Part shown: piece by piece, positions 10,090 to 40,914 of the stretch
Layout: each line of letters starts with the position of its first letter
Position numbering within the stretch: the first letter of the stretch is position 1
DNA from: Clostridia bacterium
Lineage (GTDB): Bacteria; Bacillota; Clostridia; Monoglobales; Monoglobaceae
Direction of reading: 5' to 3'
NCBI GenBank assembly: GCA_017397725.1
Contig: JAFQIA010000027.1
Location: 1 to 64,000 of the forward strand
DNA length: 64,000 bases
Translations under genes and position numbers: made by a program
Notes under the pieces: generated by a model
What the model saw: only the letters and a program-made list of their open reading frames with translations
The model's database searches: none
What the model was told of the DNA's origin: nothing

Positions 10090-10106
10090 GATAAGGGGTG
10101 ATAGAA

Positions 10107-13100
10107 ATGAACTTAGTGTTAAAAAGACTTTTTGCAATGATTATTGCTTCTTCGATTATAATAAGCATGTTTGTGCCTGTATATGCACAGAATAGCGAAT
10201 TTGCCGCAGAATTAACGATTGCCGGACGGGTGTATCGCATTTCCGGATTGGGAGAGAGTCGTTATATCAATGCGATAATTATGCCGGCAGATGTTCATAT
10301 TAACGAGTTAAGTATGCAAAAACTCAATGAACCGACCTATCTTTCATTTTCAATAAAAAACGATGATGGCTTTACAAAGAGTTTTACTTTGCCGTCTGCA
10401 TTTACAGATGGTGAATATAAGACGGTTGTATATGATGGTGCGGAAACGTTAGAGATCTATTTTATGCTTGGAAGCGATGCATTCAAAAACAACTTGCTGA
10501 ATACCAAAATTGACAATGGGGAACTTGACAGTGTGATTGAAAAATACGGGCATCAATATGAAATTGACAGCGAGTATTATGAGAGCGTGAAACCGAGTGT
10601 AAAATCTGCAATGAGTCAGAAACTGTCAAGCGGTACAATTACGGATTTCAAAACGCAATATCATACACTCCTTTTGCAAGAAACATTTCAGTCCATAGAA
10701 ATTGCCGAAGATGTATATGATGTGTTGGTTTTAGTTGGAACGGATTTTACATATTATAACCAAATTGATGAATATGCACAGCAGGAAATCCTGCTTAAGC
10801 TGTTAAAGAATTTGCCCAATACAACAAACGAACTGAAAAGTCTTGCCGAACAGTACAGCAAGGAGGCATACCAAGCCGACCCCCAACCGGACAATCCTGG
10901 GACAAACCCACTTGGACCGAATGCGGGAAGTGTAGCTGTTATAGGACCGGGGGCAACACCGGGTTACATACCTTCACTACCCTCTTCCCATGGGCTTGCT
11001 GATATTGCAGAGCATTGGGCAAAGGATTGTATTACAGAGTTGTACGGGCTTGGCATTGTTTCCGGAAGCAATGACGGAAATTTTTATCCGGAAAACAATA
11101 TTACTCGTGCTGAATTCTCAAAAATGCTTGCAGGTGTAACAGGGATAGAGCCGGACACAAGAGCAACTCAAAAGTTTTCTGATGTGGGTAAAACCTCGTG
11201 GTATTACGGATATGTAATGTCTATCTATGAGTATGGAATAATGACAGGCTACACAGAAGATATGTTTGGACCTGATAATAACATTACAAGACAGGAAATG
11301 GCTGCTGCAATTTATCGTTTTTTAGAAACCTATGGAATTGCGATGAATGAACAGGCGAGCTTTGCTGATATTGATACAGCCAGTGAATATGCACAAGCAG
11401 CGATTGAAAAGCTTAGTGGGGCAGGGATCCTTTCAGGCTCAGATGGAAAATTTAGACCTACTGACAACTTAACAAGAGCCGAAGCAGCAACGGTTATGCT
11501 GAAAATATACAATAAGCTGAAAGATGCTGTAAAGGACGATTCGAAAAATAAGCTGACTTCTCGTGTGATAACCAAGATGACACAAAAAGAAGCAAGAATC
11601 ACTGAGGCAGAGCAGCTTATTCCGAAGCTTTTGAAAAGACCTTTACGGGGGGTTACCAGAGCTGGCTTTATTTCAGATGTATATGATCTTGCATATCATT
11701 TTGAGGCAAAGGCAGAAAACCAATACTTTGAAGATTTGCATATTTCAAGAGAAGAGACAGCAAGCATACAAGCTGCAGTAGATGCAGGGCTGATTGAGAA
11801 AGGCGAAAAATTCCGCCCTGATGAAATCATTACAGGATATGATGCAATTTGTGCTATCGTGAGTGCATTAGGATATAAAGAATATGCTGATCTTGTCGGA
11901 TATATGAAGGTGGCAGGGAATGCAGAGTTATTATATAGCCTTTCCAAAGGTTTTCAAATAGCAGCTCCGCTCGATGAGGAAACGGCTAAGATTATCCTTC
12001 TTAATATGCTTCAGTCACGAATGGCTACGAAAAATTCATTTTCTTCGGATGGTAAATTTGAGCTTGCTGTAGGCGAAGAGACGATGCTTGAGAGAGTATT
12101 CGGTATTTCTATGAACAGCGGCATTGTAAGAGAAACAAATCTTAACAGTCTCAGTAGAGTAGGAATATACAAACAAAACAATGTTATCATTGGTGATAAT
12201 AATTATAAAGCTGATGAGGGAGATGATTATATCTCTTATCTCGGTTATGATGTTAATGTATATTATACTGAGAACAATGAACTGTTTATGATAGCGAAGA
12301 CGGATAAAAACAAAACCGTAAGCTTTCCGGTGGATGGAGCATTTATGCCGGAAAATCTTACCATCCAGTATGCGGGTGACAATGATACAGGAACATATAG
12401 GCACAGGCTTAATGAAGATTATTCATTTCTCTACAATTCTGCTTTGAGTGCAAGAAATGCCAGACAGGTAGTTGACGAAACCGATGATGGAATTGTGGAG
12501 ATCATAGATAATAATGATGATGGGATCTATAATATCGTAACTGTAAAAAAGCCGGAATATGTAATCGTTGACAGTGTTAGCAAGCTTAACAAACAGATAT
12601 ACGATAAAAATTCATCGGAAAATATGATTGATGTGTATGATGATGAGGTCGTTTTTTCATTTGAAGGAAGGAACGGCGATATTAGACTTTTAGATATCGC
12701 TTCCGATGAAATATATGAAGTATATACATCCGAGGATAAAAAACTGATAGAAATGAAGCTCATGAGTACTATCGTTGCCGGAAATGCATCTTCTCTATCA
12801 GAGGATAGAATCACTATTAACGGAGAAGAATATAAGACTACAGAATATTTTGATGCGTATTATTCTGATAAATTTGAGTTAGGAAAGGAGTATTCCTTTA
12901 CTATTTCATCTGCAGGAAAACTTATATGTTATTCGAAATCAGGAAAGGATATGCAACCGGGATATATTATCAATGCATACATAGAGGAACCCTTCGGAAG
13001 TGAACTAAGCATAAAAATGTTCACCCAAAATAACAAATTTGAAACCTATACCCTGAAAGGTCGTATTTTAGTTGACGGTCAAGCAACGAAAATAAAAGAG

Positions 13101-14072
13101 TTAAATGATAGGTTGAAGATGGGCGGGGGGATGAATGATCAGCTTGTGTATTATAGCGTTGATGATAACGGAAATATCAAAGCGATTGATTTTGCGCAAG
13201 TCAGAACAGGCGCTGAAATAGATGCAATGAGGCAAGAGAACAACGCATTGACGGAACATAAGTTTGATGAGACCTCATTTTTATATAGAAGCACCGGTGC
13301 ATTGATGTATCCTCGATTCAATGTTTCTGATAGTATGGTATTTATCATCCCCAATGATATTCGTGATGAGGATGAGTTTAGAGTAACGAATAATTCCTTT
13401 TTCTCAGATAATACCAGCTACAGTAATATAAAAGCATATAACCTGTCACAAAGCGGAAGCGCAGAAGTTGTCGTTGTTCGTTCCGATATTGCTTTGCCGG
13501 GATTTTCGTCAACGCAAGGATCTCTTGCGATAGAAGAGATCATCCACGCCTTGAATGAAGATGGTGAAGTTCTGAAGAAAGTAAGCGGATGGGTAGATAC
13601 AAAGTATGTGTCCTATTTTATCGATGATAGCATCACAACCTATAAGGCTTCCGGTGAAGAACTTGGATTTGGAGATATCATTAGATTCCAGGCAGATGGT
13701 GATGTGATAAAATCAATGGTATGCGACTTTGATGCCAATGAAAATGTGTTTGCGAGAAATGATGCAACGAATGCCTCCGAAATGAATGGCGGCTATAAGA
13801 ACTTCATGTATCAGTTCGGAGAGGCATATTATGTAGGTGATGGTTACATATATATTGGCGGAGGGGACGATGGTACAGACTTCGCATCATCGAAATTGCG
13901 TAATTTTGCTGTAAATACAACCAATATTGCTATCATAGATATGGAAGAGCAGACTGTGAAAACAGGAAAAATTTCTGATATCAAGTCATATTTGAATTTC
14001 GGCAAAGGAGATTTTGTACTTATCAGACAAAGAAATCTGCTTACTATGGCGGTATATGTATATGTAAGATAA
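10107..14072 (+). CDS. large SLH-domain cell-surface protein
   Basis: A 1321-residue exported protein. ATG 10107 follows AAGGGG by eight bases; the in-frame GTG 10098 overlaps that site. Residues 1-28 are a signal peptide ending VYAQ. An N-terminal domain of about 250 residues leads to a Pro/Gly-rich linker, then three SLH motifs at about 296-470 that should bind secondary cell-wall polymer (for example ITRAEFSKM, ITRQEMAAA and LTRAEAATV). A more diverged SLH-like stretch follows to about residue 620. The remaining 700 residues are beta-rich with many Asp/Asn and no catalytic motif that I recognise. Having SLH motifs in the middle rather than at an end is less common. Its position between the regulator and the lyase suggests a surface scaffold or glycan-binding role, but that is inference. 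Confidence 0.85.
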   Translation: MNLVLKRLFAMIIASSIIISMFVPVYAQNSEFAAELTIAGRVYRISGLGESRYINAIIMPADVHINELSMQKLNEPTYLSFSIKNDDGFTKSFTLPSAFTDGEYKTVVYDGAETLEIYFMLGSDAFKNNLLNTKIDNGELDSVIEKYGHQYEIDSEYYESVKPSVKSAMSQKLSSGTITDFKTQYHTLLLQETFQSIEIAEDVYDVLVLVGTDFTYYNQIDEYAQQEILLKLLKNLPNTTNELKSLAEQYSKEAYQADPQPDNPGTNPLGPNAGSVAVIGPGATPGYIPSLPSSHGLADIAEHWAKDCITELYGLGIVSGSNDGNFYPENNITRAEFSKMLAGVTGIEPDTRATQKFSDVGKTSWYYGYVMSIYEYGIMTGYTEDMFGPDNNITRQEMAAAIYRFLETYGIAMNEQASFADIDTASEYAQAAIEKLSGAGILSGSDGKFRPTDNLTRAEAATVMLKIYNKLKDAVKDDSKNKLTSRVITKMTQKEARITEAEQLIPKLLKRPLRGVTRAGFISDVYDLAYHFEAKAENQYFEDLHISREETASIQAAVDAGLIEKGEKFRPDEIITGYDAICAIVSALGYKEYADLVGYMKVAGNAELLYSLSKGFQIAAPLDEETAKIILLNMLQSRMATKNSFSSDGKFELAVGEETMLERVFGISMNSGIVRETNLNSLSRVGIYKQNNVIIGDNNYKADEGDDYISYLGYDVNVYYTENNELFMIAKTDKNKTVSFPVDGAFMPENLTIQYAGDNDTGTYRHRLNEDYSFLYNSALSARNARQVVDETDDGIVEIIDNNDDGIYNIVTVKKPEYVIVDSVSKLNKQIYDKNSSENMIDVYDDEVVFSFEGRNGDIRLLDIASDEIYEVYTSEDKKLIEMKLMSTIVAGNASSLSEDRITINGEEYKTTEYFDAYYSDKFELGKEYSFTISSAGKLICYSKSGKDMQPGYIINAYIEEPFGSELSIKMFTQNNKFETYTLKGRILVDGQATKIKELNDRLKMGGGMNDQLVYYSVDDNGNIKAIDFAQVRTGAEIDAMRQENNALTEHKFDETSFLYRSTGALMYPRFNVSDSMVFIIPNDIRDEDEFRVTNNSFFSDNTSYSNIKAYNLSQSGSAEVVVVRSDIALPGFSSTQGSLAIEEIIHALNEDGEVLKKVSGWVDTKYVSYFIDDSITTYKASGEELGFGDIIRFQADGDVIKSMVCDFDANENVFARNDATNASEMNGGYKNFMYQFGEAYYVGDGYIYIGGGDDGTDFASSKLRNFAVNTTNIAIIDMEEQTVKTGKISDIKSYLNFGKGDFVLIRQRNLLTMAVYVYVR

Positions 14073-31503: not shown

Positions 31504-33699
31504 ATGGAAAGATACCTAACCTATTGTACGGAGCCAAATGCGTGGTTTGAGGGATTGCCGATTGGCAGCGGCAGACTTGCGGCAATGGTGTTGTCCTATG
31601 CTGACTGCGATAAGCTTTCCTTAAACAATGAGTTTTTATATACCGGGGAGTATCGGGACCGGACGGTAGAGGATGTGGCGCATTTTTTACCCTATGTCAG
31701 AGATTACCTGAAAAAGGGGGATTATTTCCGTGGCACTATGCTGGCAAACACCGCCTTTGCGGGACTTGGCGGTATATCGGGATTTCCCAGTCGGGTGGAG
31801 GCGTATCAGCCTGCAGGTGATTTATATCTGGAATTTATAGGGGAGAGTGCATTGCTTTCCAGAGAGCTGGACATTACTACCGGACTGTGCACTGCAAAGC
31901 GGCGCGTCCAAGGGGCAGAGGTATCTGCGAGGATGATTTGCCATTGCGAACAGGACTTGATTTTTTATGAGGCAACTGCGAAAAATCCCTTTTCGGTCAA
32001 GGTCAACTACCGTCGGGTTGCGGACGAAAAAGCAAAGACGGAGACTATCTACAACCAAGAGGGGTTGGAATTTACTTGTAGCTTTGTCGGGAGCGGGTTT
32101 CGGACCTTGGCGCGGGTGTTTACCGATGGCAAGAAAGCGGTCGGCGACGACGGTATTTTGGTTGAAAATGCAACCTATCTGCGGATAGCGGCAGATATTC
32201 TTGCCGAGCCGGATACGGAAAAGCCGTTGCCGGAGCCGGAGGAACAGACTTTCCAAACCCATTGCGATGCGTTCAAAGAAAAAATGGGGGGATTTTCGTT
32301 CCGGCTTTTCGGGGAGGAATTGAAGCTGCCTACCGACCAAAGACTCCAAAGATATTGTGCGGGAGAAGAAGACCTTGGGCTTGAGGAGCTTTACTGTACC
32401 TATGCCAGATATTTGTTGCTTTCCTGTTCTCTTTGCGGCAAATACCCTGCCAACCTGCAGGGGAAATGGAATGACAACATCAACCCGCCTTGGAAGTGCG
32501 ATTATCACAACAACATCAATCTGCAAATGTGCTACTGGTTTGCAGAAAAGTGCGGAATGGGAGAATGTGCGAAGTTGCTCTCAGACTTTGCATTGAAATT
32601 ACAAAAAAACAGCGGGGATATCCCGAAAAAGCTTTTTGGCTGTCGGGGGACATTCATCCCTTTGCAGACCGACGGCTGGGCGATTCCCACCCCGGAATCC
32701 TTTGGATGGGGCGTGTGGGTGGGTGCTGCGGCGTGGATTGCCCAACACCTTTGGTGGCATTATTGTTATAGTGGGGATGTGACCTATCTCAGAGAAGAGG
32801 CATACGGCTTTTTCAAAAGTACCGCTTTGTTTTTTGAGGACTTTTTGGAAGAGGATGAACATGGCATCTTCCAGATTATCCCCAGCCAGTCTCCGGAAAA
32901 CGGATTTCAGGAAGGCGGTCAGGGGCCGGAGGTCACCCTTTGTGTGTCCTCATCCTTTGATGTGCAGCTGGTACAGGATTTGCTCACCTACTGCATCGAA
33001 AGTGCGAAAATCCTCGGGGTGGATGAGGATAAACAGGAACTATGGAAAGATATTAAAAATCGTCTGCCCAAGCCTCAGGTGGCATCAGACGGAAGAATTG
33101 TGGAATGGGATAAGGATGGGTATACCGAGAACCAACCCGGGCATCGGCATCTTTCACCCCTTTACGGCATTTTTCCCTCGGAACTGTTTACGCCGGAAAA
33201 GAATCCCAAGCTTTATGATGCCTGCATCAAGTCGCTGGACTATCGAATGAGTCACGAGGGTGGACCCTCCGGCTGGAGTCGGGCTTGGTGCGCCAATGTC
33301 TATGCCAGAGTGAAGAATGCAGAAAAGTTTTATCAGCATTTTTCAATTCTGCTCAACGATTTCAGTACCAAATCCTTGCTTGATTTGCATCCGCCCGGTG
33401 TGTTCCAGATTGACGGAAATATGGGTGGTGCATCGGCGGCAATCGAGGCGGTGGCAACCTATTATGATGAAAAAGTATACCTTTTGGGGGCGTTGCCGGA
33501 GCATTGGCGGCAAGGCGAAGTGAAAGGTTTTTGTACTCCCGGCGGGCACAAAATAAGCTTTGCTTGGAAAGACGGCAAGCTCACCACTCTTGCGGTGGAG
33601 CTTGGCTATGGAGAAACGATAGAAATCGCACCCTGTCAAGGTTTGAAAGCGGGAATAAAACTCTCCGGAAAAGCGGGAGAAAAAGTAAATGTTTTGTAA
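31504..33699 (+). CDS. GH95 alpha-L-fucosidase/galactosidase-like glycosidase
   Basis: A 731-residue enzyme lacking a signal peptide. The N-terminal beta domain has WFEGLPIGSGRLAAM and YQPAGDLYLEF. The catalytic alpha/alpha toroid has LQGKWNDNINPPWKCDYH with the conserved Asn pair, PSQSPENGF with general acid Glu465, and FQIDGNMGGASAAIEAV with Asp637. These are the GH95 landmarks for inverting 1,2-alpha-L-fucosidases; some members prefer alpha-L-galactose. It acts on imported oligosaccharides, for instance from xyloglucan or host glycans. It is a single-gene unit with its own promoter and terminator and does not belong to the cluster upstream. Confidence 0.92.
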   Translation: MERYLTYCTEPNAWFEGLPIGSGRLAAMVLSYADCDKLSLNNEFLYTGEYRDRTVEDVAHFLPYVRDYLKKGDYFRGTMLANTAFAGLGGISGFPSRVEAYQPAGDLYLEFIGESALLSRELDITTGLCTAKRRVQGAEVSARMICHCEQDLIFYEATAKNPFSVKVNYRRVADEKAKTETIYNQEGLEFTCSFVGSGFRTLARVFTDGKKAVGDDGILVENATYLRIAADILAEPDTEKPLPEPEEQTFQTHCDAFKEKMGGFSFRLFGEELKLPTDQRLQRYCAGEEDLGLEELYCTYARYLLLSCSLCGKYPANLQGKWNDNINPPWKCDYHNNINLQMCYWFAEKCGMGECAKLLSDFALKLQKNSGDIPKKLFGCRGTFIPLQTDGWAIPTPESFGWGVWVGAAAWIAQHLWWHYCYSGDVTYLREEAYGFFKSTALFFEDFLEEDEHGIFQIIPSQSPENGFQEGGQGPEVTLCVSSSFDVQLVQDLLTYCIESAKILGVDEDKQELWKDIKNRLPKPQVASDGRIVEWDKDGYTENQPGHRHLSPLYGIFPSELFTPEKNPKLYDACIKSLDYRMSHEGGPSGWSRAWCANVYARVKNAEKFYQHFSILLNDFSTKSLLDLHPPGVFQIDGNMGGASAAIEAVATYYDEKVYLLGALPEHWRQGEVKGFCTPGGHKISFAWKDGKLTTLAVELGYGETIEIAPCQGLKAGIKLSGKAGEKVNVL

Positions 33700-34939: not shown

Positions 34940-36094
34940 ATGAAAATTACGGATTGCATCCACAGTGTGGGTGTGAATGATTATGATATTGATTTGTTTG
35001 AAGGACAATTTAAAGTAGAAAAAGGGATGGCATATAATTCCTACCTGATTGTGGATGAAAAGATTGCGGTAATGGACACCGTGGATAAAAAATTCGGGGA
35101 TGTATGGCTGAAAAACCTAAAGGATATAATAGGAGATAAAGCGCCGGATTACTTGATTATCCATCATATGGAGCCGGACCATTCGGCAAACATTCATCGG
35201 TTTATGGAGGAATATCCCGATGCAACGGTTGTTGCAAGCGCCAAGTCCTTTGGAATGATGAAACAGTTTTTCGGCACCGATTATCCGGACAGACAATTGG
35301 TGGTCAGCGAAGGGGAAACCCTGAATCTGGGAAGTCATACCCTCACCTTTGTGATGGCACCCATGGTTCATTGGCCGGAGGTGATGATGAGCTACGAAAG
35401 CAGTACCAAAACGCTGTTTTCTGCGGATGCCTTTGGCAAGTTTGGCACAGGGGATGCAGAGGAAGCGTGGGCGTGCGAGGCACGGCGGTATTATTTTGGT
35501 ATTGTTGGAAAATTCGGGGCGCAGGTACAGGCGGTACTGAAAAAGGCATCGGCACTTTCTATCGAAAGAATCTGCCCCCTCCACGGACCGGTGCTTTCGG
35601 AAAACCTGTCCTATTATCTGGACCTTTATCATACCTGGTCTTCTTATCTGCCTGAGAGTAAGGGTGTGGCGATTTGTTATACCTCAGTCTACGGCAACAC
35701 CGAAGAAGCGGTCAGACTTTTGGAACAGGCGCTCAAGGAAGAAGGCTGTGAAAAGGTTGCGGTGTCTAACTTAGCAAGATGCGATATGGCAGAGGCGGTG
35801 GAGGATGCGTTCCGGTATGACCGGTTGGTGCTTGCCACCACCACTTATAACGGAGGGGTATTCCCCTTTATGCAGGAGTTTTTGCATCACCTGACCGAAC
35901 GGAATTTTAAGAATCGGACGGTGGGGATCATCGAAAACGGCAGTTGGGCACCGATGGCAGAAAAGGTCATCAAGGCAAGCCTTGAAAAGTCCCCGAATCT
36001 GAAGTTTACCGAGGCGGGCGTACACATCAAATCCGCGCTGAATGAAGAAAATCGTAAAGAGATTCTGGCTCTTGCCAAGGAGCTCTGTCAATAA
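34940..36094 (+). CDS. flavodiiron protein (A-type flavoprotein, O2/NO reductase)
   Basis: A 384-residue class A flavodiiron protein. The N-terminal metallo-beta-lactamase-like domain has the di-iron motif H76-x-E78-x-D80-H81 (HHMEPDHSA), followed by HWPEVMMSYE, the bridging Asp in FSADAFGKFG, and the last His in CPLHGPVL. The C-terminal flavodoxin domain starts near residue 250 with YTSVYGNTEEAV, the FMN phosphate loop. The protein reduces oxygen to water or NO to N2O and protects anaerobes from both. No rubredoxin domain is fused, so electrons must come from a separate donor. Trx and TrxR follow in the same operon. Confidence 0.95.
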   Translation: MKITDCIHSVGVNDYDIDLFEGQFKVEKGMAYNSYLIVDEKIAVMDTVDKKFGDVWLKNLKDIIGDKAPDYLIIHHMEPDHSANIHRFMEEYPDATVVASAKSFGMMKQFFGTDYPDRQLVVSEGETLNLGSHTLTFVMAPMVHWPEVMMSYESSTKTLFSADAFGKFGTGDAEEAWACEARRYYFGIVGKFGAQVQAVLKKASALSIERICPLHGPVLSENLSYYLDLYHTWSSYLPESKGVAICYTSVYGNTEEAVRLLEQALKEEGCEKVAVSNLARCDMAEAVEDAFRYDRLVLATTTYNGGVFPFMQEFLHHLTERNFKNRTVGIIENGSWAPMAEKVIKASLEKSPNLKFTEAGVHIKSALNEENRKEILALAKELCQ

Positions 36095-36108
36095 AGGAGG
36101 AAAAAGAA

Positions 36109-36414
36109 ATGGCAGTAATTGTAATTACAAGTGAAAATTTTGAACAGGAAATTTTGCAGAGCGACAAACCGGTGCTTTTAGATTTTTGGGCAAGCTGGTG
36201 CGGACCTTGTAAAATGCTCTCTCCCATTGTGGATGAACTGGCGGAAGAACACCCTGAAATTAAGGTGGGTAAGGTCAATGTGGACGAACAGACTGCGCTT
36301 GCTGCACAGTTCAAGGTGATGAGCATTCCCTCCCTGTTTGTGATGAAAAACGGAGAGATTGTTAACCAGTCGGTTGGGGTAAAAACCAAGCAACAGATTC
36401 TTAGTATGTTTTGA
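36109..36414 (+). CDS. trxA: thioredoxin
   Basis: A 101-residue thioredoxin of normal length with the active site WCGPC (Cys31 and Cys34), the cis-Pro segment SIPSLFVMKNG, and FWASW before the active site. It carries electrons from the reductase encoded next to disulfide substrates. AAAGGAGG lies before ATG 36109. It is in the same operon as the flavodiiron protein, an oxidative-stress arrangement common in clostridia. Confidence 0.97.
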   Translation: MAVIVITSENFEQEILQSDKPVLLDFWASWCGPCKMLSPIVDELAEEHPEIKVGKVNVDEQTALAAQFKVMSIPSLFVMKNGEIVNQSVGVKTKQQILSMF

Positions 36415-36424
36415 GGTGTTGAAG

Positions 36425-37351
36425 GTGGAACGACATTGCTATGATGTGATTGTCATCGGCGGAGGCCCGGCAGGGTATACCACGGCACTATATACCACAA
36501 GAGCAGGGCTTGATACCTTGGTGATAGAAAAATTTTCTGCCGGCGGACAGATGACCCAGACATCACAAATTGACAATTATCCCGGTTTTGACGAGGGGGT
36601 AGATGGGTTCACCTTGGGCTTTAAGATGCAGAATGGCGCAGAGCGGTTCGGGGCGGAAACCCTGCAGGCAGAGGTGCTGTCGGTAAAGCTGAATGCGCCT
36701 GTCAAGGAGATAGAAACCTCGGTGGGAAGTTTCCTTGCCAAAGCGGTAGTTGTGGCTACCGGAGCCGAACATCGGCATCTGGGACTTCCCGATGAAGAGG
36801 CGTTGATTGGCAAAGGCGTGGGTTATTGTGCCGCCTGTGACGGGATGTTTTATCGGGATAAGACTGTGGCGGTAGTCGGCGGCGGAAATTCTGCAGCCGC
36901 GGATGCACTTTTGCTTTCTAAAATCTGCAAAAAGGTGATTCTGATTCATCGTCGGGATACCCTGAGAGCGACACAGGTTTACCATCGTCCGCTGATGCAG
37001 GCAGAGAATGTGGAATTTTTGTGGAACAGCAGCGTCAAGGAGATTTTGTTTGAGGAAACGGTTTGTGGAGTCAGGGTGGCAAACAAACTGACAGGCGAGG
37101 AAACGGAGATTCCTTGTGACGGGCTTTTCATCAGTATCGGGCGTGCACCGGAAACCGCGTTGTTTCAAGGACAGCTTGCTATTGATGAAAATGGTTATAT
37201 CATCGCAGACGAAAGCACCAGAACCAACATTCCGGGGGTGTTTGCGGTGGGGGATGTGCGCACCAAAGCGGTGCGGCAGATTGTGACCGCTGTGGCAGAC
37301 GGGGCAACCGCATCTCATTTTGCAGAAGAATATCTGGCAAATCATAAATAA
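36425..37351 (+). CDS. trxB: thioredoxin reductase
   Basis: A 308-residue flavoenzyme of the low-molecular-weight class. The FAD-binding GGGPAG lies near residue 12, the redox-active CAAC is Cys135-Cys138, and GGGNSAAADALLLSK with HRRD is the NADPH site. The C-terminal FAD motif is GVFAVGDVR. The start is uncertain: GTG 36425 has GAGG eight bases upstream, while in-frame TTG 36419 and GTG 36416 lie too close to it. It reduces the thioredoxin encoded just upstream. No terminator is obvious before the riboswitch region. Confidence 0.95.
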   Translation: MERHCYDVIVIGGGPAGYTTALYTTRAGLDTLVIEKFSAGGQMTQTSQIDNYPGFDEGVDGFTLGFKMQNGAERFGAETLQAEVLSVKLNAPVKEIETSVGSFLAKAVVVATGAEHRHLGLPDEEALIGKGVGYCAACDGMFYRDKTVAVVGGGNSAAADALLLSKICKKVILIHRRDTLRATQVYHRPLMQAENVEFLWNSSVKEILFEETVCGVRVANKLTGEETEIPCDGLFISIGRAPETALFQGQLAIDENGYIIADESTRTNIPGVFAVGDVRTKAVRQIVTAVADGATASHFAEEYLANHK

Positions 37352-37407
37352 GGACTCTCCAAAAAATAGGGGGAAGTAAAGATAACAATTTCATAGCTTC
37401 ATACAAA

Positions 37408-37594
37408 GTGTCGACGGCACCGAGGGGGTGCCGTGGGTGAAAAGGGAACACGGTGAGAATCCGTGACGATACCTGTCGCCGTATACATCTAAGGTTTTTA
37501 TGCTCGTCGGTGAAAGCCGGTCATTGGGAAACTGAGAAGGCAGAGCACAAAAACGCCGTTGATTCGATAGGATGTGAGTCGGAAGACCTGCTTT
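37408..37594 (+). promoter_or_regulatory. cobalamin riboswitch
   Basis: The leader contains the core features of the B12 riboswitch. A GC stem (GACGGCACC...GGTGCCGT) is followed by AAAAGGGAACACGGTG, then GAATCCGTG and ACCTGTCGCC. The B12-box is GAGTCGGAAGACCTGC at 37576-37591. The central part ACGATACCTGTCGCC differs somewhat from the common GC-GCCCCCGC form but keeps the order of elements. Downstream hairpins can act as the expression platform. It controls the gene pair 37746-40878, so those genes should be turned down when cobalamin is plentiful. Confidence 0.88.
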
Positions 37595-37595
37595 G

Positions 37596-37625
37596 ATATC
37601 ATTCCGTATGGGAATGGTGTTTTTG
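37596..37625 (+). terminator. hairpin right after the riboswitch core
   Basis: Arms 37596-37605 and 37611-37620 pair over 10 bp with three G-U pairs around GTATG, and TTTTG follows. It could be a weak terminator or part of the expression platform. Confidence 0.45.
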
Positions 37626-37670
37626 TGCGCCCAAAAAGCGCCCAAATTATGAATATCACAGGAAAACACA

Positions 37671-37714
37671 GCTGTGGTAATTTTCTTTTTCGGAAAATTA
37701 CCGCAGCTTTTTTA
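37671..37714 (+). terminator. intrinsic terminator in the B12-riboswitch leader
   Basis: Arms 37671-37685 and 37693-37707 (15 bp, one G-U) are followed by TTTTTTT, 32 bases before the ATG. A terminator in front of the gene it precedes only makes sense as a regulated element, so transcription termination controlled by the riboswitch is likely. Between 37623 and 37670 I see nothing further. Confidence 0.8.
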
Positions 37715-37745
37715 TATATAACAACAAGGAAAAGGAGAGAAAAAG

Positions 37746-40259
37746 ATGAAAAAATTTTTGGCGTTATGTTTGGCACTGGTGTTGCTGATAGGGATTGTTC
37801 CGGTAGGGGCAGAGGGAATGAATGTTGCAATCACGGTTTATCTTTCTATCAGTCAATACGGCGAGTTTGTGACCACTGGGGATGGCGATACCTTTGCCTA
37901 TCTTCCAGTGAATCTGGAGGGACAGGAAAGCTATAACCTTGATGATGTACTTGTGACGGCACATAGTCTTTATCATCCCGATGGCGCAGAGGCGTATGCC
38001 TCCAGTGTTGGAGATTGGGGGCTTAGCATCGACAAGCTGTGGGGGGACACCAGCTACAATTTTGGGTATCAGGTTAACGGCGGCAGCGAGTCGGTAATGG
38101 GACTTTCCCATATCGTAGAGGAGGGAGATGTGATTGATGCATGCATCTATCGCAGTCAGTCCCCCAAAACCGAAAGCTATTCCTGCTTTGATTTTCAACA
38201 ACAAGAGGCGAAAACAGGAGCAGAAGTGAATCTGACTTTATCCTATGCAAGTGGTTATGATGACAACTGGGATATGGTGTTTTCCCCTTGCGAAGATGCT
38301 GTCATCACCATCAATGGTGTGGAAACGGAAGTAATCACCGATGCAAACGGATTTGCAACCCTGACCTTGGACGAGGTGGGAACCTATATCATTTCTGCCA
38401 AAAAGAGCAAAATGGACGGAGGCAATGAGGTGACTGCCATTACTGCACCGGTTTGTATGGTTACCGTAACCGATCCGGTAGAGGAGATCTTGGAAGGGAT
38501 TGCCGGTGTTTATGCAAGCTGCAATCTAGAGGAGGCAGGCGGAAATCTTCCTTGGATTCTTGCGGATATGATGGTATATGAAACCTTGTATCCGGAGAGT
38601 GCCAGCATCTTGAGCGAAAGCAAAAAAGAAGAAGGCTTTCAGGCGTTGGTTGCCTTTGCTGGTAAGGCGGAATTCCCCGGTGATTTGGCAAAATCCATTC
38701 TGGCTTTGCGGGCGATGGGCTATGATGCCAAGCAGGTGTATACCCAAGATTTTGAGAAAGTAGATTTGGTTGCCAAGTTGACAACGCTGATTGATGCACA
38801 GGCTGAAAGTGTGACCAATATCTATACCCTTCCTTATGTGATGCTTGCTTTGAATCAGGCGGAAGGGTATACTACGGCGGAACAAAAAGCTTGGATGATT
38901 GGGGCGGCACTGCAAAGCAAAGGAGACTGGCAATCTACCGCAGATGGAACCGATGCGATGACTCCAATGATTCTGGCGCTTTCGCCTTATTACCATACCA
39001 ATGCTCAGGTGAAAACGGCGATAGATGAAGCGGTGGAAATTTTGAAAGCAGAGCAACGGGAGGATGGACTAATTGACGGATTTGCAGGGTATGAGCCTGC
39101 ATCCACCGGACTTGCCATCTGCGCCCTTTCCTCTATGGGTATCAGTGCAAAGGAAGTGATTTGCAGCGAAAATAGTCTGATTGATGGATTGCTTTCTACT
39201 GCAAATCCCGAAAAGAACGGATTTCCCAATGCCTTTGCCACCGAACAAGGCTTCCGCGGCCTTTTGGCGTGGTGCTTGCTGATTGAAAACGCCGGAAAGG
39301 CGATGTATGATTTTTCAGATTGTGCGATGGAAGAAGCAAATGCATCGGGGGCACAGCTCTGTCCGGTGGTCTTTTCTGTCACCCCCAACACTGCAACGGT
39401 AACCATAGAGGGACAGCAAGCGATTAAAAATTATGTCTTTGATCTTGCGGCAGGAACCTATACCTATACTGCAACAGCATCCGGATACCAAACGGCAACC
39501 GGAACCCTTACCGTGACTGAGGCAGAGGAAACTGCACGGACAGCAAAGACCATAGCGGTTTCTCTTTCTTCCAACTATGTTGGCGGAGGAGGCGGTGGCG
39601 GAGGATATATTCCGCCTGTGAAAGAAGAAAAACCGGAAGGAGTAAAGCCAGAAGAAGAAAAGCAACTGGAAGAAGTGAAACCGGAACAGCCGGTATTCAC
39701 CGAGGCAACCTTCTCAGATGTGCGCAAAGAGGATTGGTATTATCCGTCGGTTGCGTATGTGTATGAGAATAACTTGTTCCAAGGGACAGAAAATGGGTTT
39801 GAACCCAACACCGCAATGTCAAGGGCCATGCTGGTGACCGTGCTTTATCGCCTTGCGGGAGCAGAAGACAGTCAAGAAGAATCTGCCTTTGCTGATGTGC
39901 CCGAGCATATGTGGTATACCCAAAGCATCAACTGGGCGGCAAAAAATCAGATTGTCAGCGGAGTTTCTTCCACCGAGTTTGAGCCGGATGCCGATATTAC
40001 CCGGGAGCAGATGGCATTGATTCTGTATCGGTATGCTGCTTTTTGCGGATATGATAACGAGGTATCAGGCGAGAAAAACCTTTCTTACCAAGACGGCAGT
40101 CAGGTGTCGGAATATGCCAAGGATGCCATTGCCTATGTGGTTGCAAGCGGTGTGATGAATGGTAAGTCGGACAAGATGCTTGCGCCTTTGGATGGAGCAA
40201 CCAGAGCTGAAGTGGCAACCATGCTGATGCGGTTTGTGGAGATGACCAATGAAAAGTAA
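37746..40259 (+). CDS. SLH-anchored surface protein with DUF4430-like and alpha-toroid domains, probable cobalamin-binding
   Basis: An 837-residue exported protein under a cobalamin riboswitch. The signal peptide (1-20) ends VGAEG. Residues 22-140 form a DUF4430-like beta domain (DDVLVTAH, WGLSIDKLWG, GYQVNGG, EEGDVIDA). An Ig-like domain follows (about 150-240). Residues 240-535 show helical repeats typical of the alpha6/alpha6 toroid of prenyltransferases and transcobalamins (DLAKSILALRAMGYDA, SVTNIYTLPYVMLALNQAEG, YEPASTGLAICALSSMGI). A PEGA-like domain comes next (about 535-610), then eight glycines, a Glu/Lys/Pro linker and three SLH motifs (653-837) for wall anchoring. Transcobalamin and intrinsic factor also combine this toroid with a DUF4430-like domain. 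I infer surface capture of B12. The next gene overlaps by 11 bases. Confidence 0.8.
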   Translation: MKKFLALCLALVLLIGIVPVGAEGMNVAITVYLSISQYGEFVTTGDGDTFAYLPVNLEGQESYNLDDVLVTAHSLYHPDGAEAYASSVGDWGLSIDKLWGDTSYNFGYQVNGGSESVMGLSHIVEEGDVIDACIYRSQSPKTESYSCFDFQQQEAKTGAEVNLTLSYASGYDDNWDMVFSPCEDAVITINGVETEVITDANGFATLTLDEVGTYIISAKKSKMDGGNEVTAITAPVCMVTVTDPVEEILEGIAGVYASCNLEEAGGNLPWILADMMVYETLYPESASILSESKKEEGFQALVAFAGKAEFPGDLAKSILALRAMGYDAKQVYTQDFEKVDLVAKLTTLIDAQAESVTNIYTLPYVMLALNQAEGYTTAEQKAWMIGAALQSKGDWQSTADGTDAMTPMILALSPYYHTNAQVKTAIDEAVEILKAEQREDGLIDGFAGYEPASTGLAICALSSMGISAKEVICSENSLIDGLLSTANPEKNGFPNAFATEQGFRGLLAWCLLIENAGKAMYDFSDCAMEEANASGAQLCPVVFSVTPNTATVTIEGQQAIKNYVFDLAAGTYTYTATASGYQTATGTLTVTEAEETARTAKTIAVSLSSNYVGGGGGGGGYIPPVKEEKPEGVKPEEEKQLEEVKPEQPVFTEATFSDVRKEDWYYPSVAYVYENNLFQGTENGFEPNTAMSRAMLVTVLYRLAGAEDSQEESAFADVPEHMWYTQSINWAAKNQIVSGVSSTEFEPDADITREQMALILYRYAAFCGYDNEVSGEKNLSYQDGSQVSEYAKDAIAYVVASGVMNGKSDKMLAPLDGATRAEVATMLMRFVEMTNEK

Positions 40260-40878
40260 AAAAGGAATATGGATTGGAATTTTGGCAGTATTGGTTTTGG
40301 CGATTGCTCTTTTTGTAGGAAATCGCCAACCTGTGCCTGAACCCGAAATACCAAAAGCGGAGGAAGAAGTGGTTCTTCCCTCCGCTACTCCGTCGCCAAC
40401 CAAAGAGATTCCCAAAAGTGAGCCGGTCAAGACTGTGCAGAAGACCGCGGAACCTACGGAAAAACCGGTGGAGGAGAAGACGGAGGAGGTGCTTACCTGC
40501 ACCCTGTCGGTTCGTTGTGATGCTGCGCTGCGCAATGCCGACAAGCTCAAAGAGGGGAAACTGGAGGTCCTCCCAAGCAACGGTGTGATATTTCAAGAAC
40601 AAGCGGTGGCGTTTGCTGAAGGGGAAAGTGTGTTTGATGTTCTGCTTGGTCAGATGCAGAAAAACAAAATCCACTTTGAATTTGTGAAAACGCCCATGTA
40701 TGACTCGGCATATATCGAGGGAATCGGCAATTTGTATGAGTTCGACTGCGGGGAGTTGTCAGGCTGGCTCTATCGGGTCAATGGAGTCCGACCAACCTAC
40801 GGCTGCTCCCAGTATCCGGTGAAAAAGGATGACAAAATCGAATTCTTTTACACTTGTGATTTCACCGCTGAAACATAA
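40249..40878 (+). CDS. membrane-anchored DUF4430 (transcobalamin C-terminal-like) protein
   Basis: A 209-residue protein with one N-terminal membrane helix (about 7-23) and no lipobox. A Pro/Glu/Lys-rich spacer (25-83) leads to one DUF4430 domain (about 84-205). Family marks are the repeat of short beta strands, EGESVFDVLLGQM, YIEGIGNLYEFDCG, SGWLYRVNGVRPTYG and KKDDKIEFFYTCD. The Pfam family is related to the C-terminal domain of transcobalamin, which closes over the bound cobalamin. The ATG lies inside the end of the upstream gene (11-base overlap, GGAG upstream), so the two are translated together under the B12 riboswitch. It could receive cobalamin from the wall-anchored partner and hold it near an importer not encoded here. 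Confidence 0.88.
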   Translation: MKSKKGIWIGILAVLVLAIALFVGNRQPVPEPEIPKAEEEVVLPSATPSPTKEIPKSEPVKTVQKTAEPTEKPVEEKTEEVLTCTLSVRCDAALRNADKLKEGKLEVLPSNGVIFQEQAVAFAEGESVFDVLLGQMQKNKIHFEFVKTPMYDSAYIEGIGNLYEFDCGELSGWLYRVNGVRPTYGCSQYPVKKDDKIEFFYTCDFTAET

Positions 40879-40909
40879 AAAAGGCATACCCCATAGGGGT
40901 ATGCCTTTC
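40879..40909. terminator. bidirectional intrinsic terminator
   Basis: The arms AAAAGGCATACCCC and GGGGTATGCCTTT flank the loop ATA, with A and T runs at the two ends. It serves both the B12-regulated pair and the converging acyl-CoA ligase gene. Confidence 0.9.
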
Positions 40910-40914
40910 TGCTC

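Follow-up and report, generated by a model that had tools for sequence, protein, structure and literature searches.

A cobalamin-riboswitch operon of a Clostridia bacterium encodes a wall-anchored toroid protein and a membrane-held DUF4430 protein predicted to scavenge corrinoids for a CbrT-type importer

Little is understood about the uptake of vitamin B12 through the wall of Gram-positive bacteria in the gut, where communities are shaped by competition for corrinoids. A two-gene operon in the genome of a Clostridia bacterium bears on this uptake. It lies in a 64,000-nucleotide (nt) stretch (GenBank assembly GCA_017397725.1, contig JAFQIA010000027.1, positions 1–64,000 of the forward strand; hereafter the window), where a cobalamin riboswitch precedes genes for a protein with an alpha/alpha toroid and SLH motifs (protein 1) and a protein with a membrane helix and a DUF4430 domain (protein 2; Table 1). 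An initial annotation, made from the sequence alone, read the pair as a two-part transcobalamin that captures cobalamin at the wall and passes it inward. We find it probable that the pair is the outer portion of a system that scavenges corrinoids (B12) and feeds a CbrT-type energy-coupling factor (ECF) importer; how the two proteins share the work is a finer question, taken up below. Several lines of evidence support this assignment.

First, and most strongly, the genes keep telling company in relatives. The loci counted here come from related genomes and were picked for their similarity, and the counts should not be read as independent trials; a contig scan gave three close relatives, and whole-genome searches were far more productive. 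Protein 1 has relatives in 28 of the 51 genomes searched in the order, and protein 2 in 30 of the 38 searched in the family. A toroid gene stands directly upstream of 40 of the 53 protein 2 genes, and for 35 of the 53 an EcfT gene lies on the same strand at most 300 bp away, the neighbouring ECF importer consisting of EcfT, EcfA–EcfA and an S-component. The operons of genomes G018, G023, G011, G025 and G003 carry a gene of the protein 1 type, in many cases another toroid gene (product ~540 amino acids, aa), protein 2, EcfT, and EcfA–EcfA with the S-component, either fused or separate; the identical order was seen in genomes sampled from the whole phylum. SLBB, toroid and CbiO/CbiQ (ECF) genes share one operon at loci L038, L041, L042, L043, L045 and others. 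Because the two-gene arrangement is conserved in relatives, it is not due to chance. The idea of capture outside and delivery inward is strongly supported by this conserved linkage of protein 2 to a CbrT-like ECF importer. The initial annotation had missed both the ECF transporter and a 2007 prediction of a like system.

Second, the genome that contains the window encodes a matching importer. Its ECF genes sit on a different contig (26) from the toroid/DUF4430 pair, under a riboswitch of their own, one of two cobalamin riboswitches found in total in the 1.74-Mb assembly, which is 84% complete, so that absences from it are soft. The importer combines EcfA and EcfT with a CbrT-like S-component, from which corrinoid transport is predicted: the ECF ATPase model TIGR04520 and the CbiQ/EcfT model both score above cut-off, and the S-domain has ECF-CbrT (6fnp; 6.4e-9) as its only clear solved relative. 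Two EcfA ATPases and the S-component are fused in one protein, an arrangement common to many relatives. ECF-CbrT from Lactobacillus delbrueckii, the protein of structure 6FNP, has been shown experimentally to carry cobalamin and cobinamide (PMC5997447). The window genome also encodes a MetH-like cobalamin enzyme; searches of it found neither CbiD nor CobS, no PF01923 adenosyltransferase and no FecCD/BtuC permease. The organism appears to be auxotrophic for B12, the CbrT-like ECF system being its recognisable importer.

Third, the operon has a B12-sensing leader. RF00174 is the sole Rfam family matched anywhere in the window, at a score well above gathering (Table 1), and the B12 box inside the aptamer has no second copy within 64 kb, where chance expectation is 0.01. 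The downstream terminator, annotated at the outset together with the riboswitch and the overlap of the two genes (11 nt), was likewise recovered and is probably the expression platform; the leaders of L034, L035, L038 and L041 carry a hairpin that resembles it. Such leaders recur in related genomes: Rfam detected the cobalamin aptamer at 13 of the 19 loci scanned in relatives, several of the others being cut by contig ends or having short flanks, and a B12 box lies at most 900 bp upstream of 32 of the 49 genes encoding a toroid with SLH motifs.

Fourth, the architecture of protein 1 resembles that of known B12 carriers. An AlphaFold model of residues 22–612, built with 28 relatives, is confident (mean predicted local distance difference test, pLDDT, 92.7; predicted template modelling score, pTM, 0.80) and arranges a beta-grasp-like domain, an immunoglobulin (Ig)-like domain, the alpha/alpha toroid and a beta domain in that order. 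The helical repeats first noted from the sequence correspond in the model to a toroid, a fold that we take as certain enough; the toroid and the riboswitch score, two of the three checks set with the initial annotation, thereby came out in its favour. With VIA-align the toroid superposes on intrinsic factor (3kq4) with Z 19.3, root-mean-square deviation (rmsd) 2.9 over 237 residues and 21% identity, and on transcobalamin (2bb5) with Z 18.5, rmsd 3.5 over 248 residues and 18% identity. The DUF4430-like domain annotated in this protein stands in part. Its modelled topology, E-E-H-hairpin-E-E, is a beta-grasp with a hairpin after the helix, and it shows a weak match to the protein 2 DUF4430 profile (hhalign 54%, E 1.3e-4, 33 columns), but Pfam finds no DUF4430 (PF14478) in protein 1, this domain included; model topology and profile together make it likely to be DUF4430-like. 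At the other end, the three SLH motifs match SLH structures of the S-layer protein Sap (6bt4/3pyw) and, with a signal peptide assigned from hydropathy, mark protein 1 as an SLH wall-anchored protein. Foldseek matches to complement and alpha-2-macroglobulin were set aside, as they reflect the Ig-like domain beside the toroid and have an overall rmsd of ~14–39 Å.

Protein 2 has the layout first described for it, with a Pro/Glu-rich spacer between the membrane helix and a canonical DUF4430 domain. The domain averages 56% column identity across 28 relatives, which keep the core Y-I-x-G-I ... C-G-x-x-S-G-W-x-Y-x-V-N-G, with S-G-W-x-Y-x-V-N invariant. In 24 of 53 relatives a lipobox-like motif near the N terminus takes the place of the plain helix; membrane anchoring therefore appears common to protein 2 relatives, since the motif replaces the helix in about half. 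A search of PDB sequences with the profile of the protein 2 DUF4430 alignment matched neither transcobalamin nor intrinsic factor, so what ties DUF4430 to transcobalamin is Pfam, the 2007 paper and the Foldseek result for L047 described next. Weak phmmer matches of protein 2 to cannabidiolic acid synthase and other proteins were dismissed as chance.

Fifth, relatives contain the same two domains both fused and apart. In L042, L045, L046, L047 and L052, toroid and DUF4430 follow each other in one chain, which is the order of transcobalamin. The L047 fusion was modelled with pLDDT 81 and pTM 0.78, part of its DUF4430 being of low confidence, and transcobalamin, haptocorrin and intrinsic factor make up its top 15 matches in Foldseek (E 7e-9 to 5e-6). 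In some relatives, secreted toroid-only proteins of ~320–340 aa are encoded directly 5′ of a DUF4430-only gene, and the 17 toroid-only cases sampled, which have no SLBB domain, mostly adjoin DUF4430-only proteins. Searches of the window genome turned up no toroid of this kind besides that of protein 1 and no DUF4430 besides that of protein 2; a second toroid gene of the ~320–540-aa type that is common in relatives was searched for there and not found.

The toroid-only proteins form a family in their own right, either secreted (~320–340 aa) or equipped with SLH motifs (~540 aa); in many relatives the gene directly precedes that of a membrane DUF4430 protein. The label that Pfam gives the family, prenyltransferase/squalene-cyclase-like, is probably misleading. 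Yet another architecture of this kind combines DUF4430, GLUG motifs and a toroid in a 1,518-aa protein (L048:8779-13335, minus strand), encoded 3′ of a B12 box.

Several observations weigh against a B12-specific interpretation. Squalene-cyclase-type proteins match the toroid equally well (Z ~20, 11–16% identity, VIA-align), and a squalene-cyclase-type profile also matches it (E 1.7e-7). PF01122 (Cobalamin_bind) aligns with residues 310–475 of protein 1 below its cut-off (21.4 against 25 bits, E 1.4e-4), as it does in several orthologues (22.5–23.8 bits), and for this reason protein 1 is not classed as a member of that family. The L047 fusion aligns to transcobalamin in domain order, but with an overall rmsd of ~19 Å, so the relative placement of its toroid and DUF4430 is not reproduced. 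On the importer side, the Pfam riboflavin S-component model matches the S-domain too (1.1e-10), which leaves the substrate of the S-component a predicted one. The toroid fold alone does not indicate the ligand, and the order typical of PF01122, toroid then beta domain in one chain, is absent here: the SLBB-like domain of protein 1 is N-terminal and the canonical DUF4430 lies in protein 2.

The gene context, the leader and the domains of the two proteins suggest how the system might work. At low B12 levels inside the cell, transcription would be allowed by the riboswitch to run past the terminator. Protein 1 would leave the cell and stay attached to the wall through its SLH motifs; a corrinoid would be bound by its toroid, probably together with its own N-terminal beta-grasp domain. 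Protein 2, held in the membrane by its helix, with a spacer before its DUF4430 domain, would take part in binding or take the corrinoid over, its DUF4430 probably closing over the mouth of the toroid as the C-terminal domain does in transcobalamin. It would then present the corrinoid to the CbrT-like S-component, and the ECF motor would import it.

In its strict form the split-transcobalamin idea, in which a wall or secreted toroid protein and a membrane DUF4430 protein close round one corrinoid and pass it to the ECF importer, is one that we put forward tentatively. It fits the single toroid and single DUF4430 of the window genome and the toroid-only/DUF4430-only pairs elsewhere. It sits less easily with protein 1 having an SLBB-like domain of its own and with L038, where protein 1 has a canonical DUF4430 beside protein 2. 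As protein 2 persists there, it may be a second station and not a missing half, a reading that fits L038.

There is a real possibility that protein 1 binds the corrinoid unaided, its SLBB-like domain closing the toroid, and that protein 2 acts independently of it, as a second receptor or a docking subunit for the ECF importer. Besides the beta-grasp-like domain of protein 1, this would account for the operons of L037, L038 and others, which retain a protein 2 gene even though their protein 1 homologue bears a canonical DUF4430, and it agrees with protein 2 being both more conserved and more widespread than protein 1. The sampled toroid-only secreted proteins without SLBB, most of them beside DUF4430-only proteins, fit a two-chain binder instead, as does the finding of just one toroid and one DUF4430 in the window genome.

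Alternatively, the system could serve corrinoid precursors or other cobamides (cobinamide, cobyrinate diamide, pseudo-B12) and not cobalamin itself, which we regard as rather unlikely. The uptake of both cobalamin and cobinamide by ECF-CbrT (PMC5997447) and the annotation of CbrUVT for cobyrinate-diamide uptake (PMC8123684) speak for such a role; against it, though softly, as the genome is 84% complete, a cell in whose genome CobS and CbiD were not found could hardly complete a precursor, and a MetH-like enzyme requires a complete cobamide. That protein 1 has some general role as a wall protein or enzyme and is incidentally repressed by B12 is very improbable: toroids also occur in terpene cyclases and sugar enzymes, and squalene-hopene cyclase and glycosidase folds match at Z as high as the B12 carriers, but this would leave unexplained why the operon is conserved together with an ECF importer of the CbrT type, why B12 riboswitches recur and why DUF4430 fusions have the transcobalamin order.

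The corrinoid-scavenging system proposed here is a variant member of a kind already predicted. Burroughs et al. (2007) described secreted proteins with SLBB and an alpha/alpha toroid, placed in the clade of the transcobalamin C-terminal domain, often as two paralogous SLBB proteins in an operon with a CbiO-like ATPase and a CbiQ-like membrane protein, and predicted B12 scavenging and surface complexes in bacteria that usually lack B12 synthesis (PMC1796856). Relatives such as L038 have genes for SLBB and toroid surface proteins in one operon with CbiO/CbiQ-type (ECF) genes, as in that description. The system of the window genome differs in that its wall protein has no canonical C-terminal DUF4430 and its ECF genes lie elsewhere under a second riboswitch; word searches of PMC1796856 found no mention of riboswitch, S-layer or SLH. 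What is added here is control by a riboswitch, anchoring through SLH motifs, the identification of an ECF partner of the CbrT type, split forms with a toroid alone, and an arrangement over two loci. No earlier report of the SLH or riboswitch link was found in the open-licence literature, and prior mention elsewhere is possible; nor was an experimental test of any of these proteins found in the literature searched, which leaves out most subscription journals.

Human transcobalamin, haptocorrin and intrinsic factor (PF01122) likewise join an alpha/alpha toroid, matched here at Z 18–19, to a DUF4430/SLBB-type domain, and the natural L047 fusion has their domain order. Unlike them, the bacterial pair is anchored to wall and membrane and spreads its domains over two chains, protein 1 having its beta-grasp domain at the N terminus, extra Ig-like, PEGA-like and SLH domains and a PF01122 score below cut-off. 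BtuG-type proteins have a beta-propeller fold and go with a TonB-dependent transporter. These lipoproteins of Bacteroides offer a parallel in surface-exposed B12 capture by a gut bacterium (PMC6143338), in a different envelope. ECF-CbrT of Lactobacillus delbrueckii (6FNP) is related to the S-domain of the partner importer, which here is fused to both ATPases; there, the S-component itself binds the substrate, and the portion of the report available describes no binding protein of wall or membrane (PMC5997447).

If the split-transcobalamin reading were true, CbrT-type ECF transporters in many Bacillota would depend on external binding proteins, in contrast to the view of ECF systems in which the membrane S-component is the substrate-binding protein, and the pair would represent living bacterial parts from which animal B12 carriers may have arisen. 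The operon joins DUF4430/toroid surface proteins, cobalamin riboswitches and CbrT-type ECF importers, which the papers that we found treat apart, and it gives DUF4430, by its Pfam name a domain of unknown function, a concrete predicted role testable with two small soluble domains.

Table 1. Coordinates of the operon, its domains and the related elements; positions are those of the window unless preceded by a locus label
Feature	Position	Strand	Basis or remark
Cobalamin riboswitch aptamer RF00174	37389-37609	+	cmscan 66.5 bits, gathering score 31.5, E 3.3e-14
B12 box	37576-37592	+	inside the riboswitch aptamer
Intrinsic terminator of leader	37670-37708	+	17-bp stem then T-run; z -5.8
Protein 1 gene	37746-40259	+	open reading frame (ORF1), 837 aa
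Signal peptide, protein 1 residues 1-21	37746-37808	+	by eye; hydrophobic N terminus, mean hydropathy 2.8
N-terminal beta-grasp/SLBB-like domain, residues ~22-134	37809-38147	+	model topology, weak profile match
Ig-like beta domain, residues ~139-243	38160-38474	+	all-beta model segment; MG4 match in relative L037
Alpha/alpha toroid, residues ~242-515	38469-39290	+	model pLDDT mostly >93; fold matches; PF01122 (below cut-off)
PEGA/CarboxypepD_reg-like beta domain, residues ~527-607	39324-39566	+	PF13620 33.5 bits; model
Three SLH motifs, wall anchor, residues ~655-835	39708-40250	+	PF00395 E 7.1e-34, 3 stretches
Protein 2 gene	40249-40878	+	open reading frame (ORF2), 209 aa
Membrane helix, protein 2 residues 5-23	40261-40317	+	mean hydropathy 2.7; single N-terminal helix
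DUF4430 domain PF14478, protein 2 residues 125-202	40621-40854	+	58 bits, gathering cut-off 23.8
Operon terminator hairpin	40880-40908	+	-22.7 kcal/mol, z -4.9; 3′ of ORF2
Second cobalamin riboswitch (G000:C26)	L003:11994-12229		
EcfT and fused EcfA-EcfA-S genes	L003:8341-11876	-	3′ of the second riboswitch, contig 26
Toroid-only genes, examples among others	L038:12000-13628; L046:3799-4818; L113:6938-7882		

Elsewhere in the window, flavodiiron-type, thioredoxin-like and thioredoxin-reductase-like proteins are encoded in a row immediately 5′ of the B12 leader (34940-37351, plus strand), probably an oxygen-defence cluster separate from the B12 system. The 1,324-aa product of a second SLH gene (10098-14072, plus strand) has three SLH motifs as its only Pfam assignment at E 1e-8; the gene's neighbours encode an AraC-type regulator, a DUF4962/F5-F8-type-C protein and a GH88 hydrolase, and the region looks like a polysaccharide-use cluster with a wall-anchored protein of its own. 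Finally, a GH95-type glycosidase of the alpha-L-fucosidase family is encoded at 31504-33699 (plus strand); the GH95 catalytic domain is itself an alpha/alpha toroid.

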